This document shows, piece after piece, positions 4,396 through 13,445 of a stretch of DNA of 64,000 bases. The DNA lies in contig NZ_JAKVRD010000001.1 in NCBI RefSeq assembly GCF_022814865.1, positions 248,001-312,000 on the forward strand. The letters are read 5' to 3'. This DNA is from Shimia aestuarii (GTDB taxonomy: Bacteria > Pseudomonadota > Alphaproteobacteria > Rhodobacterales > Rhodobacteraceae). Positions within the stretch are counted from its first letter, which is position 1. Every line of letters begins with the position of its first letter. The notes beneath the pieces were generated by a model. The model was not told the DNA's origin. It ran no database searches and saw only the letters and a program-made list of their open reading frames with translations. The position numbers and the translations under genes were made by a program.

Positions 4396-5559
4396 ATGTT
4401 GTTCCGTTCTAGCCTTGCCCGCCGGTTTCTGAAAGGGGCCGCTGCCACGCTGGCTCTCGTGGGTCTGACCGCCTGTGTTCCTTCAACGGGACCGGTTATC
4501 TCGACGTCGAACCCCGTGCCGGTCGCGCTTCTCGTGCCTTCAGGGTCCGGAGATTCCGGCGATGCCTTGATTGCACAAAGCCTTGAGAACGCGGCACGCC
4601 TTGCAATTTCCGATCTCGACGGGGTCAAGATTGACCTGCGCGTCTATTCTACAGCAGGCAAACCCGCGACCGCCGCCGCCGCCGCGCAAAAGGCTGTCGC
4701 GGAAGGGGCGAAGATCATCGTTGGCCCGCTCTACGGGGCTGCCGCGAATGCTGCAGGCAAGGCCGTTGCGGGGAATGGCGTCAACGTTCTGACCTTCTCC
4801 AACAACACCGAGATCGCGGGCGGCAATGTCTTTGTCCTCGGGTCGACATTTGAGAACACCGCGAACCGGTTGGTGAACTATGCGACGAGCCAAGGGAAAC
4901 GCAACATCCTGATCGTTCACGCCGATACTGTCCCCGGACAGGTCGGGCGCAATGCGATCATGGGCGCGATCAACGCCTCTTCTGCGTCGAGCGCCGGCAC
5001 TGTCGCTTATAAATACTCTCAGGATGGCGTGATCGCCGCCGTGGCCGAGATCAAGGCTGCGGTCGAGCAGAACGCGCCGGACACCATCTTCCTGACGGCC
5101 TCGACCTCCGGCGCACTGCCGCTCTTCTCGCAAATGCTTCCCGAAGCCGGAATCGACCCCCAGACGGTGCAGTATATCGGACTGACCCGCTGGGATTTGC
5201 CGTCGCAAACCGTTGCGCTGCCTGGCGTACAGGGATCGTGGTTCGCACGTCCCGACGAAGCACTGAGCCGCGCCTATACCGATCGCTATGCCCAAGCCTA
5301 TGGTGGCCTGCCGCATAACCTGAGCGGTCTGGCTTATGACGGCATTGCGGCGATCGGCGCACTGGTCAAAGCCGGCAAAAGCAACGCATTGACCACAAGC
5401 GCCCTAACCCAGGGTGCCGGATTCCAAGGGGTGAACGGTATCTTCCGCCTGCGGTCCGATGGAACGAACGAACGCGGCCTGGCGGTTGTCACGATCCGCG
5501 ACAAACAAGTGGTGACCCTTGACCCTGCGCCAAAAAGTTTCGGCGGCTTCGGTTTCTAA
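4396..5559 (+). CDS. LpoA/LppC-like penicillin-binding protein activator lipoprotein
   Basis: A 387-aa exported lipoprotein. The N-terminus has Arg residues, a hydrophobic core and a lipobox LTAC with Cys27 as the lipidation site. The rest is a type I periplasmic-binding-protein fold (VALLVPSGSG start; IIVGPLYGAAAN; TFSNN; YDGIAAIGALVKAG near the end). In enterobacteria LpoA activates PBP1A from the outer membrane; alphaproteobacterial members lack the N-terminal TPR domain, as here, so the activator role is inferred from family and from the rsmI/yraN neighbourhood. The gene overlaps the glnD start by about 41 bases. Confidence 0.85.
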   Translation: MLFRSSLARRFLKGAAATLALVGLTACVPSTGPVISTSNPVPVALLVPSGSGDSGDALIAQSLENAARLAISDLDGVKIDLRVYSTAGKPATAAAAAQKAVAEGAKIIVGPLYGAAANAAGKAVAGNGVNVLTFSNNTEIAGGNVFVLGSTFENTANRLVNYATSQGKRNILIVHADTVPGQVGRNAIMGAINASSASSAGTVAYKYSQDGVIAAVAEIKAAVEQNAPDTIFLTASTSGALPLFSQMLPEAGIDPQTVQYIGLTRWDLPSQTVALPGVQGSWFARPDEALSRAYTDRYAQAYGGLPHNLSGLAYDGIAAIGALVKAGKSNALTTSALTQGAGFQGVNGIFRLRSDGTNERGLAVVTIRDKQVVTLDPAPKSFGGFGF

Positions 5560-8329
5560 ACCGGACGACCTCCCGCTTCCCGCCCCCTCAACCGATCTCG
5601 TCCGCCCCGCAGATGACATCCTTGATCGCAAGGCCCTTCTCGACGCCGTTACCGGCGCTCGGGAAGCGCACGCCGACGACAGGGCCTTTCGCAATGCCGT
5701 TGTGAAGCTCTTGCTTGCTGCGCGCAAAGCGGCCAATGCCGAGATCGAGGCAGGTTTCCTTGACCGCCCCCGTGACGCGCGCGCTATGAAAAGCGCCTAT
5801 ACATGGGTCACCGATTGCCTTGTTGGGACGGCGCACCATGTCGCCACGACCTACTTGCATCCGCTTCAGACCCCAACAGAAGCCGAACGGATCGCCCTCT
5901 TTGCAGTGGGCGGCTATGGGCGCGGCGAGATGGCACCGCAATCCGATGTCGATCTGCTGTTCCTGACACCCTACAAGATCACCCCCTGGGCCGAGAGCGT
6001 GATCGAAACCATGCTCTACATCCTGTGGGATTTACGGCTGAAGGTTGGCCACGCCTCACGCACGGTCAAAGACTGTCTGCGGCTTGGCGGCGAGGACTTC
6101 ACTATTCGCACCGCCTTGCTTGAGAATCGTTTCCTGCGTGGCTATGCCCCACTTGCGGACGAATTGAATGCGCGTCTCGAAAAAGACCTTTTCAAAGGCT
6201 CCGAACGCGAGTTCATCGAAGCAAAGCTGCATGAACGCGACGAGCGTCACAAGAAGCAGGGCGAACGCTACATGGTCGAGCCCAATGTCAAAGAGGGCAA
6301 AGGCGGCCTTCGCGATCTGCAATCGCTATTTTGGATCGCCAAATACGTCTATCACGTACAACAGGCCCGAGACCTTCTAGACAAGGGGCTGTTCCACAAG
6401 GACGAGTATGAGCGTTTCGCCGAGGCCGAGAATTTCCTCTGGGCCGTGCGCGGCCATATGCATATCCTCGCAGGTCGCCCTGTCGAACAACTGACCTTCG
6501 ATCTGCAAGTGCAGGTCGCAGAACGCATGAGGTATCTCGACAAAGGTGGTCGGCGTGCCGTCGAACACTTCATGCAGGACTATTTCCGTCACGCGACCTC
6601 GGTGGGAGATCTGACGCGCATCCTCTTGACCAAGCTCGAAGCTGACCACGCCAAGGCGGCTCCCCTGATGGAGCGCCTCTTCCGTCGCCGCCCAAGGATC
6701 AAACCGGGCTATGAGGTCATCAACAATCGTCTGGCGATCACCGACGAAAAGGACTTCCTTGCTGACAAGCTCAATATCCTGCGCTTGTTCGAGGAAGGGT
6801 TGCGCACGGGCCTCTTGATCCACCCAGACGCCATGCGGCTTGTGACGGCAAATCTAGACCTGATCGACGACGAATTTCGCGCCAACAAGGACGCCCAGAA
6901 GATCTTTCTCGGATTGCTCCTCAAACACGGCAATCCCGAACGCGCGCTCCGCCGGATGAACGAACTTGGTGTGCTCGCCGCTTTCATCCCCGAATTCGCC
7001 CCGGTCGTCGCGATGATGCAGTTCAACATGTACCATTCGTACACCGTCGACGAACACACGATTCAGGTGATTTCAAACTACGCCCAGATCGAACGGGAAG
7101 AGCTTCAGGTCGAACTGCCGCTCTCCTCGGAGATCATTAAGACCGGGATCAACCGGCGCGTCCTCATGGTCGCGATGCTGTTGCACGACATCGGCAAAGG
7201 GCAAGAGACCGACCATTCTATTCTCGGCGCGCAGATCGCCCGCCGCGTCGCGCCTGCGCTTGGTTTGCGCAAAGGCGAATCTGAAACCGTCGAATGGCTC
7301 GTGCGCTATCACTTGTTGATGTCCGACACGGCTCAGAAACGAGATATCGCGGACCCGCGCACCGTGCGCGACTTTGCCAAGGCCGTGCGCTCGGTGGACC
7401 GACTCAACCTCCTAACGGTGCTGACCGTGTGCGATATTCGCGGTGTTGGCCCCGATGTCTGGAACAACTGGAAAGCCGCGCTCCTGCGCGCACTCTACCG
7501 TCAGACACGCGTTGTCCTCGAAGACGGCATGGAGGCCATCAACCGCGAGAACCGCGGCGCCGAAGCCAAGAAAAAGCTTCGCGCGGAACTCAAGGGGTGG
7601 TCCGGCAAGGACATCAAGCGCGAAACCACCCGCCACTACGATCCCTATTGGCAGGGCCTGCACATCACTGCCCATAAGGTCTTTGCCGAGCTGCTACGCG
7701 ATATCGACGACGACGAGGTACGTATCGACCTGCACCCAGACGAGGATCGCGATGCGACCCGCGTCTGTTTTGCCATGTCCGATCACCCCGGCATCTTTAG
7801 CCGCATGTGCGGCGCCTTGGCACTGGTCGGGGCAAACATCGTCGACGCCCGCACCTTCACCTCTAAGGACGGCTACGCGACCGCTGCCTTCTGGATTCAG
7901 GATGCCGACGGCTCGCCCTATGAAGCCAGCCGCCTCAAACGCCTGCAACAGATGATCGACAAGACCCTCAAGGGCGAAGTGATCGCCACTGAAGCGATCA
8001 AATCGCGCGACGTCATCAAGAAACGCGAACGCGCCTTCAAGGTGCCGACGACGATCACCTTCGACAACGAAGGCTCGGAAATCTACACGATTATCGAGGT
8101 CGACACCCGCGACCGCCCCGGCCTTCTCTTCGATCTGACGCGCACCCTTGCCAATAACAACGTCTATATCGCCTCCGCCGTTATCGCGACATACGGTGAA
8201 CAGGTGGTTGATAGCTTCTACGTCAAAGACATGTTCGGCCTGAAATTCCATTCCGCGTCGAAGCAGCAAGCGCTTGAAAAGAAACTGCGTGAAGCAATCG
8301 AGCGCGGCGTCGAAAGGGCTATTTCGTGA
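5519..8329 (+). CDS. glnD: bifunctional [protein-PII] uridylyltransferase / uridylyl-removing enzyme
   Basis: A 936-aa nitrogen sensor that uridylylates PII when glutamine is low and deuridylylates it when glutamine is high. Domains in order: nucleotidyltransferase (GGYGRGEM then SDVDLLFL, around residues 128-147), GlnD linker (NVKEGKGGLRD), HD domain (LLHDIGKG near residue 557) and two C-terminal ACT domains (DHPGIFSR and DRPGLLFD). No ATG exists in frame before residue ~90; the frame is closed by a TGA at 5513-5515, so the likely start is the TTG at 5519, inside the end of the upstream lipoprotein gene. No convincing Shine-Dalgarno is visible. The stop overlaps the murJ start (GTGA). Confidence 0.95.
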   Translation: MTLRQKVSAASVSKPDDLPLPAPSTDLVRPADDILDRKALLDAVTGAREAHADDRAFRNAVVKLLLAARKAANAEIEAGFLDRPRDARAMKSAYTWVTDCLVGTAHHVATTYLHPLQTPTEAERIALFAVGGYGRGEMAPQSDVDLLFLTPYKITPWAESVIETMLYILWDLRLKVGHASRTVKDCLRLGGEDFTIRTALLENRFLRGYAPLADELNARLEKDLFKGSEREFIEAKLHERDERHKKQGERYMVEPNVKEGKGGLRDLQSLFWIAKYVYHVQQARDLLDKGLFHKDEYERFAEAENFLWAVRGHMHILAGRPVEQLTFDLQVQVAERMRYLDKGGRRAVEHFMQDYFRHATSVGDLTRILLTKLEADHAKAAPLMERLFRRRPRIKPGYEVINNRLAITDEKDFLADKLNILRLFEEGLRTGLLIHPDAMRLVTANLDLIDDEFRANKDAQKIFLGLLLKHGNPERALRRMNELGVLAAFIPEFAPVVAMMQFNMYHSYTVDEHTIQVISNYAQIEREELQVELPLSSEIIKTGINRRVLMVAMLLHDIGKGQETDHSILGAQIARRVAPALGLRKGESETVEWLVRYHLLMSDTAQKRDIADPRTVRDFAKAVRSVDRLNLLTVLTVCDIRGVGPDVWNNWKAALLRALYRQTRVVLEDGMEAINRENRGAEAKKKLRAELKGWSGKDIKRETTRHYDPYWQGLHITAHKVFAELLRDIDDDEVRIDLHPDEDRDATRVCFAMSDHPGIFSRMCGALALVGANIVDARTFTSKDGYATAAFWIQDADGSPYEASRLKRLQQMIDKTLKGEVIATEAIKSRDVIKKRERAFKVPTTITFDNEGSEIYTIIEVDTRDRPGLLFDLTRTLANNNVYIASAVIATYGEQVVDSFYVKDMFGLKFHSASKQQALEKKLREAIERGVERAIS

Positions 8330-9867
8330 AGCCGATCCGCCTGATGCGCGGCTTCCTGACCGTGGGGGGCTGGACGATGGCAAGCCGCATCCTCGGCTTC
8401 GTGCGTGATATCCTGATCCTCGCTTTCCTCGGCACTGGCCCTCTCTACGAGGCCTATGTCGTGGCGTTCCGCCTGCCCAATATGTTCCGTCGTTTCTTTG
8501 CCGAAGGCGCGTTCAACATGGCCTTTGTGCCGATGTTCTCAAAGAAGCTGGAGGGCGAAGAAGACCCACTTGGGTTCGCCCGCGAAGCCTTTGCCGGACT
8601 TGCCACGGTGTTGATCGTCCTCACGCTCCTGGCTCAGTTGGTCATGCCTTGGCTTATCCTCGGCCTTGCCTCCGGCTTTGCTGGTCAAGAGCAGTTCGCG
8701 CTCTCGGTGGAATTCGGGCGCATCGCCTTTCCCTATATCCTATTCATCTCACTTGCCGCGCTTTTGTCGGGTGTGCTGAACGCGACAGGGCGCTTCGCCG
8801 CTGCCGCCGCCGCGCCTGTGTTGCTGAATATCCTTTTGGTGGCGGGCATCTCTGGTGCCGCATGGCTTGGCCTCGATGTTGCGCGCGCTCTGATCTGGAT
8901 GATCCCGGTCGCCGGTATCGCGCAGCTTGCCCTTGTCTGGGTCGCCGCCGCGCGCGCCGGTTTCCCGCTGACCCTGCAACGGCCGCGCTGGACCCCCGAG
9001 TTGAAACGCCTCGTGACCATCGCCATCCCTGCCGCGCTCGCGGGCGGTGTCGTGCAGATCAACCTCCTTGTCGGTCAGCAGGTCGCTTCCTATTTCGACC
9101 GTGCCGTGGGTTGGCTCTTCGCCGCCGACCGTCTCTATCAACTGCCGCTCGGCGTTGTCGGCATCGCCATCGGCATCGTGCTCCTGCCCGACCTGTCCCG
9201 CCGCCTCAAAGCTGACGACGAGGCCGGATCGCGCACCGCCCTATCCCGCGCGGCCGAAATCTCGCTGGCCCTGACCATCCCTTGTGCTGTGGCACTCATG
9301 GTGATTCCGCTACCGCTCGTCTCGGTGCTCTTTGAGCGCGGCGCGACAACCGCCGACGATAGCGCCGCTATTGCGCTTGCCGTTGCGGTCTATGGCCTCG
9401 GCCTGCCCTCTTTCGTGATCCAGAAGATCCTGCAACCGCTGTTCTTTGCCCGCGAAGACACCAAAACACCGTTCCGCTACGCGCTCTGGGCGATGGTGGT
9501 GAACGCTGTCGTCGCCATCGGCCTCGCGCCGTTCATTGGCTGGATTGCCCCCGCCATCGCGACAACGCTTGCAGGCTGGGTCATGGTCGCGCTGCTCTAC
9601 AAAGGCACCCGCCCGATGGGCTATGTCGCCAAGTTCGATGAACGCCTGCGCCGACGCCTGCCGCGCATTTGCTTCGCCTCTGCAATCATGGGAGGGGCGC
9701 TTTGGGGCCTAACCATCGTCCTTGGCCCGGCGCTTGGCACCGATGGCTGGCGCTATCTTGCGCTCGCGATCCTGATCCTTCTCGGCTCAGTCGTCTACTT
9801 CGTCTCGGGGCACATTATTGGCGCCTTCCGCCTCTCCGATTTTCGCCGCGCGGCGAAACGCGGCTGA
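8326..9867 (+). CDS. murJ: lipid II flippase MurJ (MviN family)
   Basis: A 513-aa polytopic membrane protein that flips lipid II across the inner membrane for peptidoglycan synthesis. Family signatures at the N-terminus are SRILGFVRD, FRLPNMFRRFFAEGAF and AFVPMFS; about 14 hydrophobic segments follow, including the PLGVVGIAIGIVLLPDLSR block. It starts with GTG, overlapping the glnD stop by 4 bases (GTGA), so translation is coupled to glnD. Following an LpoA-like gene and glnD, it links a cell-wall gene to nitrogen sensing by position only; this order is common in Rhodobacteraceae. Confidence 0.95.
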   Translation: MKPIRLMRGFLTVGGWTMASRILGFVRDILILAFLGTGPLYEAYVVAFRLPNMFRRFFAEGAFNMAFVPMFSKKLEGEEDPLGFAREAFAGLATVLIVLTLLAQLVMPWLILGLASGFAGQEQFALSVEFGRIAFPYILFISLAALLSGVLNATGRFAAAAAAPVLLNILLVAGISGAAWLGLDVARALIWMIPVAGIAQLALVWVAAARAGFPLTLQRPRWTPELKRLVTIAIPAALAGGVVQINLLVGQQVASYFDRAVGWLFAADRLYQLPLGVVGIAIGIVLLPDLSRRLKADDEAGSRTALSRAAEISLALTIPCAVALMVIPLPLVSVLFERGATTADDSAAIALAVAVYGLGLPSFVIQKILQPLFFAREDTKTPFRYALWAMVVNAVVAIGLAPFIGWIAPAIATTLAGWVMVALLYKGTRPMGYVAKFDERLRRRLPRICFASAIMGGALWGLTIVLGPALGTDGWRYLALAILILLGSVVYFVSGHIIGAFRLSDFRRAAKRG

Positions 9868-9875
9868 CGCACGCG

Positions 9876-10565
9876 TCAGTCGCGCTTGCGCAACTTTTCC
9901 ACAAGATGCTGCCAGCCGCCGGGCGCGAGGACAAAAGACATCAGGAATCCCGCTGCGAAACCGCACACATCCGCAACCCAGTCCTTGTTGCCGCCAAAGA
10001 GCAAACCAAAGAGAAGCTGAATCCCCAAAAGGAAACCGATCATCGTGAAAGCCCGCGCCTGATTGGCGCCCAACTGGCCAAGCCGCGTCCAGAGCAGGAA
10101 GGTAAACGCTCCGATCAGCCCATACACGCCGGGGAATGCCCCAAAGAGCGGCTGCGACGCCTCGAGGATAAGCGCGTAGCCAAGCGCGCCGGCAATCCCC
10201 GACAGAACAAAAATCGCGAGTGTCGCGACCCCCGAAAACACCTCGCCCACCATCTTGCCAAGAGCGAGAAGCATCACGCTGGCAAATGCCGCATGGGTAA
10301 AGCTGCCATGCACGAATAGATAGGTCACCGTGCGGATCACATGCTCTACCGGCCAGATATTGTTGACCAGCATCCAGCTAAAAATCTCATCTGCAAACGC
10401 ATATCTCTGTAGCGCCGAGACGCGCCAGCCGATCGCAGCGGGCCCACCGACAACTCCTTGTGCGCCAAGCGTGAAGACGATCTCGATCCCCGCGATCAGC
10501 AGGAAAAGCGCGACCACGACAGGCGGCAGCGGATTGATCGGGTGCGAATGCTCGGGCTGGGACAT
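9876..10565 (-). CDS. rhomboid-fold membrane protein, catalytic residues apparently lost
   Basis: A 229-aa protein with about six transmembrane segments and a rhomboid layout: the HGSFTH motif in the second segment, then the segment that normally carries GxSG, then the one with the catalytic His. Here the serine motif reads GAFPGVYG, with no Ser where the nucleophile should be, and the His position reads [10 protein letters not shown], with Asp in place of His. It therefore looks like a pseudoprotease. Start chosen at 10565 because AAGGAGAG precedes it; an upstream in-frame ATG at 10613 would give 16 extra residues. It lies 8 bases from murJ in convergent orientation and is divergent from trpS. 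Confidence 0.82.
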
Positions 10566-10639
10566 GCCTGCTCTCCTTGACGGGCTTTTGCCCCATCGGT
10601 AAGGCAACGACACCCATAAATCCAGACGGAGTATTCCTC

Positions 10640-11695: not shown

Positions 11696-12904
11696 TCAAA
11701 CAGCCATGATCAGGCGGTGCTTCAGCATCGCCTGAATGATCTTCCTCACCGCCTGAGACAGATCCTCCCGTGGCTGCTCTGGGAAGGCGGCGGCAAGTGT
11801 CTGCGTGATATCTTCTTGCGTTGTCGGCTCCAACAGAAGCGTCCAGATCCCGGTCGTCACCCCGCTGAACGCATGCATGCCCGGTCCCTCGGCGCAGGCG
11901 ACAAAGACATCCTCTTGAAGCTGAGCCTCGTAGACCGAGGGATTACGTTGGTAGGTGTGATCCCCCGCAACGGCCTTGTCCGTTGTGTAAACTGCATGGC
12001 TGTCTGGCGGCAGGTTCGACGGATCAACCCGTGCTGTCGCCCCCCGGGGGTTCGCATCGCACCACGCTTTGAGGTAGGCCGCCGCCTCTTCGCCGTTGCT
12101 GTATCGCAGACGAAGGCACTGTGACGTCTCAACCAGCCCGTTGAGCATAGCCAGCACCCGCGCCGGGTTCATGCTGCGAGAAAAATTCTGCCGGATAAGC
12201 CGCCGCATGACCTTGGAGGAGGCGACTGGCTCAAGCTCCGCCTCTCCCTCCTCCCGGCGATCCAGAAGGATGATCGTAGAAATGGGCAGCGTCTCACCAT
12301 GCGGCGCCAGCTGACCGTCGGGAAGGTCAAGGTAGAGATACTGCTGGTTTCGCGGCCCCGCATGATGCTCCATCCATCGCGCGAGACCCTGCGAAAACTC
12401 TTTAGGCAATGGCCGACGCAACCGGGGCGCCGCACCGTTTGCAATGCCGCGCATCGCGCCATCCTTGCCGAGGCGTAAAGGCAGGTAGTCATCCGTAAAG
12501 ACATGCGCGCCCAGTGCAGCAAGACAGGCCGTCAGTGTGCTCTTGCCGGCGCGCCGTTGATTGGGGAACAGCATAAGGCTCCCCTCACGCTCAATCGCGG
12601 CACCATGAAAGCACAACAACCCCTGTTCAGCGCGAATTCGCGACCAGGCCAACTCTGCCAACAAAGTGCAGGCAGCATGGAGTGGATCCGAATGGGACTT
12701 CGAAAGGTCGTAGTGATCGGAAGAAAAGCAAAATCTCCCGTCCCTCTGTGACACGGTGAGCGTCGGAACGTCCATTCCGCCTTCGACAGGTGCGTAAGGC
12801 CAGTCACTGAATATCTCTGGAAGAAGAGAGACGACCGCGTCGGCACCTTCAAAAACAACCGGACCGTCCGTGCCCGTGAAATAGAAACGTTGCGTCGCCG
12901 TCAT
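11696..12904 (-). CDS. HPr-kinase-like P-loop domain fused to a C-terminal PqqD domain
   Basis: A 402-aa cytoplasmic protein. Residues about 100-290 resemble HPr serine kinase/phosphorylase: CFHGAAIE, then a P-loop FPNQRRAGKST, then the paired acidic strand TDDYLPL. The P-loop is atypical: Asn replaces the first Gly of GxxxxGK[ST], while GKST is intact. The last ~85 residues (from VYEAQLQEDVF to the end) match the PqqD fold, the leader-binding RRE domain of RiPP pathways. Start at 12904 is preferred to the longer frame from 12961, giving MTATQRFYF. It follows the Gly/Ser-rich gene on the same strand by 82 bases, likely as one transcript. HprK-like kinases that modify peptides are known in some lasso-peptide clusters; that this one phosphorylates its neighbour is my inference. 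Confidence 0.75.
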   Translation of the reverse strand: MTATQRFYFTGTDGPVVFEGADAVVSLLPEIFSDWPYAPVEGGMDVPTLTVSQRDGRFCFSSDHYDLSKSHSDPLHAACTLLAELAWSRIRAEQGLLCFHGAAIEREGSLMLFPNQRRAGKSTLTACLAALGAHVFTDDYLPLRLGKDGAMRGIANGAAPRLRRPLPKEFSQGLARWMEHHAGPRNQQYLYLDLPDGQLAPHGETLPISTIILLDRREEGEAELEPVASSKVMRRLIRQNFSRSMNPARVLAMLNGLVETSQCLRLRYSNGEEAAAYLKAWCDANPRGATARVDPSNLPPDSHAVYTTDKAVAGDHTYQRNPSVYEAQLQEDVFVACAEGPGMHAFSGVTTGIWTLLLEPTTQEDITQTLAAAFPEQPREDLSQAVRKIIQAMLKHRLIMAV

Positions 12905-12986
12905 CGGAAACAGTCTCAAATAATCGGATGCCCGGCACCAGCGATTTCTGGCCCCGGGCATCCTCTTTTCTCAGATCACTCTCAAC

Positions 12987-13445
12987 TTAGTGCATGTCCT
13001 GCGCGGCGTCGCTTGGTCCGGACGCGGTGGACCCACCGTCATCGGAACCATCATCGGACTCGCCACCGGAAGCGCCGTCATCGGCACCAGAGGCGCCATC
13101 GTCGGACTCGCCGCCCGAAGCCCCATCATCACCGCCAGATGCGCCGCCGTCGTCACCACCCGATGCGCCGCCATCGCCGTCTCCGCCCCCGGAACCACCG
13201 CCGGAACCACCGCCAGAGCCACCACCGTCACCGCCACCGGAACCACCACCGTCACCACCGCCGGAACCGCCTCCGCCGTCGCCACCGCCGCCGTCACCGC
13301 CACCGGACCCGCCGGATGCGTGTGCCATGCTCAGCGTCGTGAAGGCCGGTGCAGCATAGATCGCTGTCGCCCCCAAACCGAGTTTGGCAAGGAATTTGCG
13401 GCGATCAACCGCCTCTGTTGTAGTTTCTTCGTTCATGTCGTCCAT
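12987..13445 (-). CDS. Tat-like-signal, Gly/Ser/Asp-rich low-complexity small protein
   Basis: A 152-aa predicted protein not recognised as a named family. Residues 1-14 are acidic and polar, followed by a twin-arginine-like signal (DRRKFLAKLG, residues 14-23), a hydrophobic stretch and a probable cleavage site after MAHA (residue 43). The mature part has two zones: residues about 44-88 are GGG[S/D] repeats, and 89-145 are ASGGDDG / ASGGESDDG repeats, ending in AAQDMH. It is strongly acidic. Start chosen at 13445 because AAGGAGGAG lies upstream; the frame continues to 13514 but without an RBS. It probably forms an operon with the kinase-PqqD gene and could be its substrate. The frames on the opposite strand are repeat artefacts. 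Confidence 0.72.
   Translation of the reverse strand: MDDMNEETTTEAVDRRKFLAKLGLGATAIYAAPAFTTLSMAHASGGSGGGDGGGGDGGGGSGGGDGGGSGGGDGGGSGGGSGGGSGGGDGDGGASGGDDGGASGGDDGASGGESDDGASGADDGASGGESDDGSDDGGSTASGPSDAAQDMH

Follow-up and report, generated by a model that had tools for sequence, protein, structure and literature searches.

A small serine-rich protein of Shimia aestuarii and the enzyme encoded directly downstream of it probably form a RiPP-like system, a reading to which we assign a probability of roughly 0.7. In this system, the RRE domain of the enzyme would grip the Tat signal of the precursor, a kinase domain fused to the RRE would phosphorylate serines in the precursor core, and Tat would export the product. 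Both genes lie in a 64,000-nucleotide stretch of DNA (referred to here as the window), and their features are listed in Table 1. The pair was first proposed as substrate and kinase by an earlier inspection of the letters of the window (the sequence-only reading), which we followed up with profile searches, alignments, and comparison of relatives.

Table 1. Features of the precursor-kinase pair, in window coordinates
Feature	Position	Strand	Basis
Precursor, 152 aa, Tat-signal leader and Gly/Ser/Asp core	12987..13445	(-)	ORF reading; homologues beside kinase in 25/25 distinct family loci
HprK-like kinase/RRE (PqqD) fusion, 402 aa, stop included in coordinates	11696..12904	(-)	ORF, Pfam, profile search
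Leader, residues 1-43, ends AHA (predicted signal peptidase I site AxA)	13317..13445	(-)	24-leader alignment; predicted cleavage site
Twin arginine R15-R16	13398..13403	(-)	Invariant in 24/24 and 27/27 leaders
YxxP motif Y30-A-A-P33, hydrophobic region of signal	13347..13358	(-)	Invariant in leader alignments; 0/46 ordinary Tat signals
Core with 18 Ser in a Gly/Asp/Ala background; net charge -22; single Pro-Ser close to C-terminus	12990..13316	(-)	
P-loop N115-QRRAGKS122	12539..12562	(-)	AGKS in 24/24; aligned with HprK 3tqf, 1jb1
H100, part of HprK-type core	12605-12607	(-)	H in 24/24
D138-D139, part of HprK-type core	12488-12493	(-)	DD in 24/24
RRE/PqqD domain, residues 317-402 of fusion	11699..11956	(-)	Pfam, profile, Foldseek
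Strong RNA hairpin between genes, possible attenuator or processing site	12926..12963	(-)	Folding of 82-base gap

Both proteins are present as the sequence-only reading had described them: a 152-residue Gly/Ser/Asp protein with an RRKFLAKLGLGATAIYAAPAFTTLSMAHA Tat-like signal, and, 82 bases on, a single protein that joins an HprK-like part, recognized by a profile match, to a PqqD domain (Pfam PF05402, E 1e-6). The gap between the two genes, which are on the same strand, measures 82 bases if the fusion starts at 12904; the kinase ORF has an alternative start at 12961, and the 12904 start agrees with homologues. In the window this gap folds with an energy of -41 kcal/mol (z -6.3), whereas the same gap in five other loci folds more weakly (z -1.0 to -2.9; L002, -2.3). 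The sequence-only reading had also seen no cyclase, protease, or radical SAM gene nearby. No cyclase or radical SAM enzyme was found among the 10 neighbour proteins scanned (4.4-18 kb), but a rhomboid protease gene (9879-10613) lies about 1 kb from the pair, in a gene order common only to two near relatives. The neighbours trpS, aminotransferase, UspA, and NifU are also kept in L002 and L003, and we therefore discarded them as functional evidence and left them out of the interpretation; the aminotransferase family has a further member in L080.

The association of the two genes recurs in every fusion locus found in the family. In a protein search, 32 of 295 family genomes matched at E 1e-3 or better, and 3 loci came from a scan of GTDB contigs; after removal of one duplicate, 25 distinct fusion-type loci were obtained (L001-L004, L006-L026). 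In 25/25, a small protein with an RR signal, rich in Ser/Gly/Ala/Pro or in Arg, is encoded directly upstream on the same strand. Adjacency was likewise seen in 9/9 fusions fetched from outside the family, and four genomes of one other Pseudomonadota family, beyond the class, carry fusions with adjacent precursors. Among the weaker family matches, L027-L029 have no clear RRE (L028 reaches E 0.048 only), and L030-L033 were seen as P-loop motifs only. The fusion occurs in 3/25 genomes of the genus and is thus accessory there.

The sequence-only reading had suggested checking co-occurrence across the family. The kinase is found in 23 of the 295 genomes, the leader in 24, and both in 23, at cut-offs (kinase 1e-20, leader 1e-8) set by eye at gaps after the lists had been seen. 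Thus 23/23 kinase genomes have a leader and 23/24 leader genomes have a kinase. In G196, the lone leader-only genome, a contig ends about 480 bases from the leader. Of 34 family leader matches below E 1e-8, 31 have a kinase within about 3 kb, and the remaining three are that of G196, a subtilase (G026:C11), and a YVAT variant (G206:C6). Across 385 Alphaproteobacteria genomes, at cut-offs placed in the same manner (kinase 2.2e-22, leader 1.7e-10), the kinase is found in 35, the leader in 35, and both in 33 (Fisher p 6e-43, with genomes that are not independent). A kinase with no leader detected was seen in G397 and G478, and a leader with no kinase detected in G407 and G666. Weaker HprK-like or PqqD matches were counted as absent in this comparison; at E 1e-3, a match of some kind is present in 146/385 genomes of the class.

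In many genomes of the class, the kinase and the RRE are separate adjacent genes, which we call split systems. For ten split loci, the stretch fetched contained no precursor, and another two are at contig edges; in each of the 12 genomes a precursor is found elsewhere, at a distance of about 37-43 kb in G502, G668, and G591. This bears on whether the two genes are merely neighbours, biochemically unrelated, with the kinase acting on another target. HprK-like proteins are diverse, which leaves room for such a target, but kinase and leader still co-occur in genomes in which about 37-43 kb separate them, and we regard a chance neighbourhood as very improbable. The pairing of precursor and kinase is far beyond chance.

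We next consider the leader. Twenty-four leaders, chosen by position, RR, and a low-complexity tail and not by YxxP, were aligned; RR, A26, Y30, P33, A41, and A43 are invariant, and in a wider-range set of 27 leaders RR, G23, Y30, and P33 remain so. The second residue after the Pro is Leu in 10, Phe in 8, Met in 4, and Val in 2 of the 24. The twin arginine, hydrophobic region, and AxA of a Tat substrate are all present, and from these features the precursor is predicted to be a Tat-exported protein. YxxP was found in 0/46 ordinary Tat signals from the own genome and relatives, several of them near-copies. These 46 were retained from 49 loci (21 own-genome matches and 28 of the best matches in relatives) and picked by frame, L201 being short and L158 and L166 having failed. 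In a wider collection, 78/80 distinct precursor-like proteins have YxxP, although these were found partly by a profile containing that motif.

A [Y/W]xxPx[hydrophobic] motif is what discrete lasso RREs bind, and it is common to the leaders of linear polyphosphorylated peptides, or LPPs (LppA/LppB/LppK, Bacillota; PMC13381572, PMC12710340). If AxA is taken as the cut, the window Tyr is at -14 and the Pro at -11, nearly the distances published for lasso and LPP leaders (LppA, Y-16/P-13; PbaA, W-15/P-12; PMC13381572). That lasso and LPP RREs bind YxxP-type leaders is already known; new here is the YxxP motif within the Tat signal itself, which the sequence-only reading had missed.

The C-terminal PF05402 match of the fusion is over the cut-off in the window and was found in 24/24 full-length family fusions scanned (L024, split in two frames, was outside the scan). 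A profile of the fusions (A1) matched TbiB1 (3e-7), LppB (1.2e-6), TfuB1 (6.6e-5), and the PbaB1 entry 9x90 (5e-4) over its RRE region and solved HprKs over its kinase core. We also built an AlphaFold2 model of the fusion from an alignment of the window with L002-L004 only. This model is poor overall (mean pLDDT 50), with residues 90-313 under 50; the kinase half is too uncertain, and therefore the RRE part alone was interpreted. There, pLDDT is 56-66 over 311-350 (strands) and 76-86 over 351-402 (helices), and in a Foldseek search with the model TbiB1-leader complexes ranked first (TM 0.86 by target).

In the LppB pocket, an Asp hydrogen-bonds the leader Tyr, and F74 flanks both pockets (PMC13381572). 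When this pocket was mapped by sequence onto the 24 fusions, the YxxP-binding surface appeared mostly kept: the Tyr-binding Asp is Asp in 21/24, the Asn near the Pro site is Asn in 19/24, and 7/10 hydrophobic positions are hydrophobic in all 24. The positions of V35 and V63 vary freely, and the equivalent of F74 is Phe in 0/24. YxxP is invariant and most pocket positions are kept, while one pocket Phe never is. The exceptions include the window itself, where the Tyr-contacting Asp is Ala, as in L002 and L003, and where Ser replaces the Asn beside the Pro site (L003 and L004 have Asp there).

The HprK part alone has no Pfam match and scores 46 bits against NCBIfam HprK_rel_A, far below the cut-off of 200 for that equivalog. 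A 26-row profile of this part matches solved HprK structures with E 7e-5 to 2.5e-3 over 55-78 aligned residues. The His, AGKS, and Asp-Asp, which line up with HprK 3tqf and 1jb1, are present in 24/24 fusions, so that the H, P-loop GKS, and DD core of an HPr kinase is complete; from the roles known for HprK, we take these to be the catalytic residues. Of the Walker A glycines, the first is kept in only 7/24 fusions, and in the window Asn takes its place. In a kinase tree of 59 rows, mostly unlinked split systems group together (16 rows, support 100/100), and the fusions and most linked split systems lie on the other side.

These observations led us to consider how the fusion would act. The RRE would bind YxxPx[L/F] in the hydrophobic region of the Tat signal, keeping the precursor cytoplasmic and perhaps masking the signal. 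The fused HprK-type kinase would then phosphorylate core serines, probably at many sites in fusion-type systems, after which the modified protein would be released to Tat and cut at AxA by ordinary signal peptidase. Outside the cytoplasmic membrane, the product would act as a polymer rich in phosphoserine, which possibly binds metals. Export by Tat fits a product that is completed in the cytoplasm. The fusion could instead be mainly a Tat proofreading chaperone, with the RRE masking the signal, the NTPase timing release, and the core left unmodified. In favor of this, the recognition motif lies inside the Tat signal, and in Sec-type RiPPs partner proteins have been proposed to mask the signal peptide (PMC12452194); against it, the HprK His, GKS, and Asp-Asp are invariant, and Ser is kept while the remaining core changes. 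We therefore consider an unmodifying chaperone quite improbable.

The core offers a view of which residue the kinase would modify. The window core is made of 55 Gly, 20 Asp, 18 Ser, and 9 Ala, among other residues, and at the DNA level diverged 12/24/48-base arrays are visible in it. Its longest exact DNA repeat is 17 bases, and Gly and Asp codons are mixed. Because the exact repeats are short, the codons mixed, and the arrays diverged, the repeat is old and not freshly expanded. Recent tandem expansion of DNA was accordingly rejected as the whole explanation of the core, given the mixed codons and the retention of Ser despite changing filler. Ser codons make a weak argument against expansion in the window (16 TCN, 1 AGY) and a stronger one in some relatives (TCN/AGY 12/10 in L065 and 11/14 in L082; 13 precursors counted).

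Among relatives, Ser is found in 76/76 small cores and is their commonest residue (19.9%), whereas the filler varies (SGG, SAA, EPS, RPS, KPS, YSRP). Arg-rich cores such as RPSRPARPS, RGRSRGRS, and YSRPDYSRP, RS-domain-like in composition, were seen in L081, L083, L079, L110, and L119-L123, and 19/44 fusion-type precursors have at least 2 Cys, with two Cys near the C-terminus in L007, L011, L012, L014, and L015. The L010 core is partly masked (N). The sequence-only reading had placed the target serines in acidic SGGESDDG-type repeats, and these are not what is conserved. Since the relatives' repeats are SAA, EPS, RPS, or KPS, the acidic polymer it described holds for the window's clade and is limited to it; the acidic repeats belong to that clade only. 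An acidic context was likewise rejected as a general kinase site, since the filler of relatives is rich in Arg, Pro, or Ala; DS occurs 9 times against 38 in shuffles and ES 15 times against 32. The other main claims fared better: the pairing of substrate and enzyme is well supported by the 25/25 linkage and the co-occurrence, recognition of the leader by the PqqD/RRE domain is made likely by these together with the invariant YxxP, and conservation of Ser in all cores points to Ser as the probable target.

The most over-represented Ser context is Pro-Ser. Across the 76 cores, which are related and not independent sequences, the count of PS is 223, where shuffles give 88, and that of SP is 47, where they give 87; PS is present in 64/76 of these related cores, compared with 42 in shuffles. 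The window core has a single PS, in SGPSDAAQ. These data raise the question of whether one or a few serines per core are modified, namely those in Pro-Ser, with the repeats as a spacer or surface polymer. In the 9/9 cores with a single Ser (again related sequences) that Ser is in PS, often as xxPSxC just after the leader; split-system cores more generally often begin xxxPSxC. In the LPP system, LppK similarly modifies one Ser, close to where the core begins, and places several phosphates on that Ser, not on many (PMC13381572). However, the median Ser number rises from 2.5 in 32 split-type precursors to 18.5 in 44 fusion-type precursors (Ser fraction 0.10 versus 0.22), with the precursor of G196 (L046), whose kinase was not seen, placed in the fusion group; and the L002 core is Ser-rich without any PS. 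We consider modification of so few serines somewhat unlikely, and favor phosphorylation of many core serines in the fusion-type systems.

The same leader is also carried by other proteins. Seven genomes (L004, L064-L067, L069, L072) share the order precursor, fusion, second precursor, response regulator, histidine kinase. Pfam scans of two second precursors gave PepSY in L009/L067 (PF03413, E 1.7e-5, over the cut-off) and, weakly, in L065 (0.014). Two subtilases (PF00082, E 4e-30 and 5e-24) combine this leader with a Ser-rich stretch, and one of the two is encoded beside a fusion. In L077, a subtilase with the leader and a Ser/Gly/Arg stretch (7520-8836, plus strand) is encoded directly upstream of a precursor and fusion kinase, and L088 encodes a subtilase-family protein with an RR...YxxP leader and a Ser/Gly/Arg stretch (5154-6536, plus strand). 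In L176, L177, L179, L183, L184, and L185, split kinase-RRE pairs lie beside a histidine kinase and response regulator, a pair resembling RegB/RegA, and the precursors are elsewhere in the genome. RTX-type Ca-binding repeat proteins, read by eye, are encoded beside precursors in L229, L240, L242, and L066. A metal- or envelope-related role of the product is only suggested by the PepSY, two-component, and RTX neighbours.

In L027/L086 and L029, HprK-like proteins in which no RRE was detected follow a Ser-repeat RR protein without YxxP and a small lipoprotein-like ORF. These sets are a possible sister system, and from the two RRE-less cases (L027, L029), which are few, the YxxP motif and the RRE domain seem to go together. 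Tentatively, and with somewhat less than even confidence, we extend our reading to an unnamed, widespread class in Pseudomonadota in which the Tat signal serves as the RRE docking motif, the fusion both modifies its substrate and gates export, and the Ser-rich phospho-tag is modular, its carriers being plain repeat proteins, secreted subtilases, and PepSY-like proteins encoded next to a two-component system.

The closest described systems are the LPPs, which share an RRE with an HprK-like kinase, a Ser acceptor, the lack of a cyclase, and a leader whose YxxP lies about as far from the cut (PMC13381572). What sets the present pair apart is the fusion of RRE and kinase, a Tat signal as leader, and cores made of Ser repeats. 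Of the LPP leader consensus YxxPxVLxHQxIxFETxxS, only YxxPx[hydrophobic] is present, and the HQxIxFET part is missing. For the archaeal-type SpI peptidase of LPPs (TIGR02228), a search of the whole own genome at E 1e-3 found nothing, and the 10 neighbours scanned gave no match to it either; the LPP NTP transferase (PF14907, NTP_transf_5) is likewise unmatched in the whole genome but is present by split relatives, and an MsbA-like transporter is absent from the 10 neighbours scanned. Because the SpI peptidase, NTP_transf_5, neighbouring exporter, and full leader consensus were not found, we do not class the pair as an LPP.

The NTP transferase is relevant to a further scenario, in which phosphorylation is only a first step, followed by the attachment of a nucleotide or sugar to the phosphoserine by another enzyme or by the formation of a polyphosphate chain. 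An NTP_transf_5-like gene is near split pairs in 7/30 loci compared (L171, L173, L174, L175, L098, L185, L186), directly adjacent in 5; the one scanned, in L171, matched PF14907 with E 1e-32. Paeninodin and LPP clusters likewise have such a gene (PMC13381572), but deletion of LppN changed nothing detectable in the published host, according to the same report, and PF14907 is unmatched in the window's whole genome. Such a second step is unlikely, and phosphoserine itself is the product that we favor.

Other known systems share fewer elements. Paeninodin-like lasso clusters also combine an HprK-like kinase, a PqqD-type RRE, and a YxxP/WxxP leader, whereas the core here is long and linear, and neither a lasso macrolactam cyclase nor a B2/leader protease was found among the 10 neighbours scanned. 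In bufferins and other RiPPs with a Sec signal, a signal peptide similarly stands in place of the leader, but it is Sec, not Tat, and the enzymes are MNIOs acting mostly on Cys (PMC12452194). For DUF2063-type RREs, precursors are reported to show no fixed recognition motif (PMC12710340). The HPr-rel-A system of NCBIfam (HprK_rel_A/PqqD_rel_X) has the same two domain types, and the matches here are below its cut-offs.

Taken together, the pair looks like an undescribed, export-coupled variant of the newly found phosphorylated-peptide family, the LPPs. If our reading is true, this would be the first RiPP-type system that uses Tat, as none was found in the literature as judged by titles and the beginnings of abstracts. 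In such a system the export signal would itself be the docking site of the enzyme, which makes directly testable the idea that partner proteins mask a signal peptide until modification is complete. Secreted materials with multiple phosphoserines are better known from animals, as in caseins and dentin proteins. If our reading is true, Gram-negative bacteria would have such a secreted multi-phosphoserine material as well, one whose charge has evolved from strongly acidic to Arg-rich.
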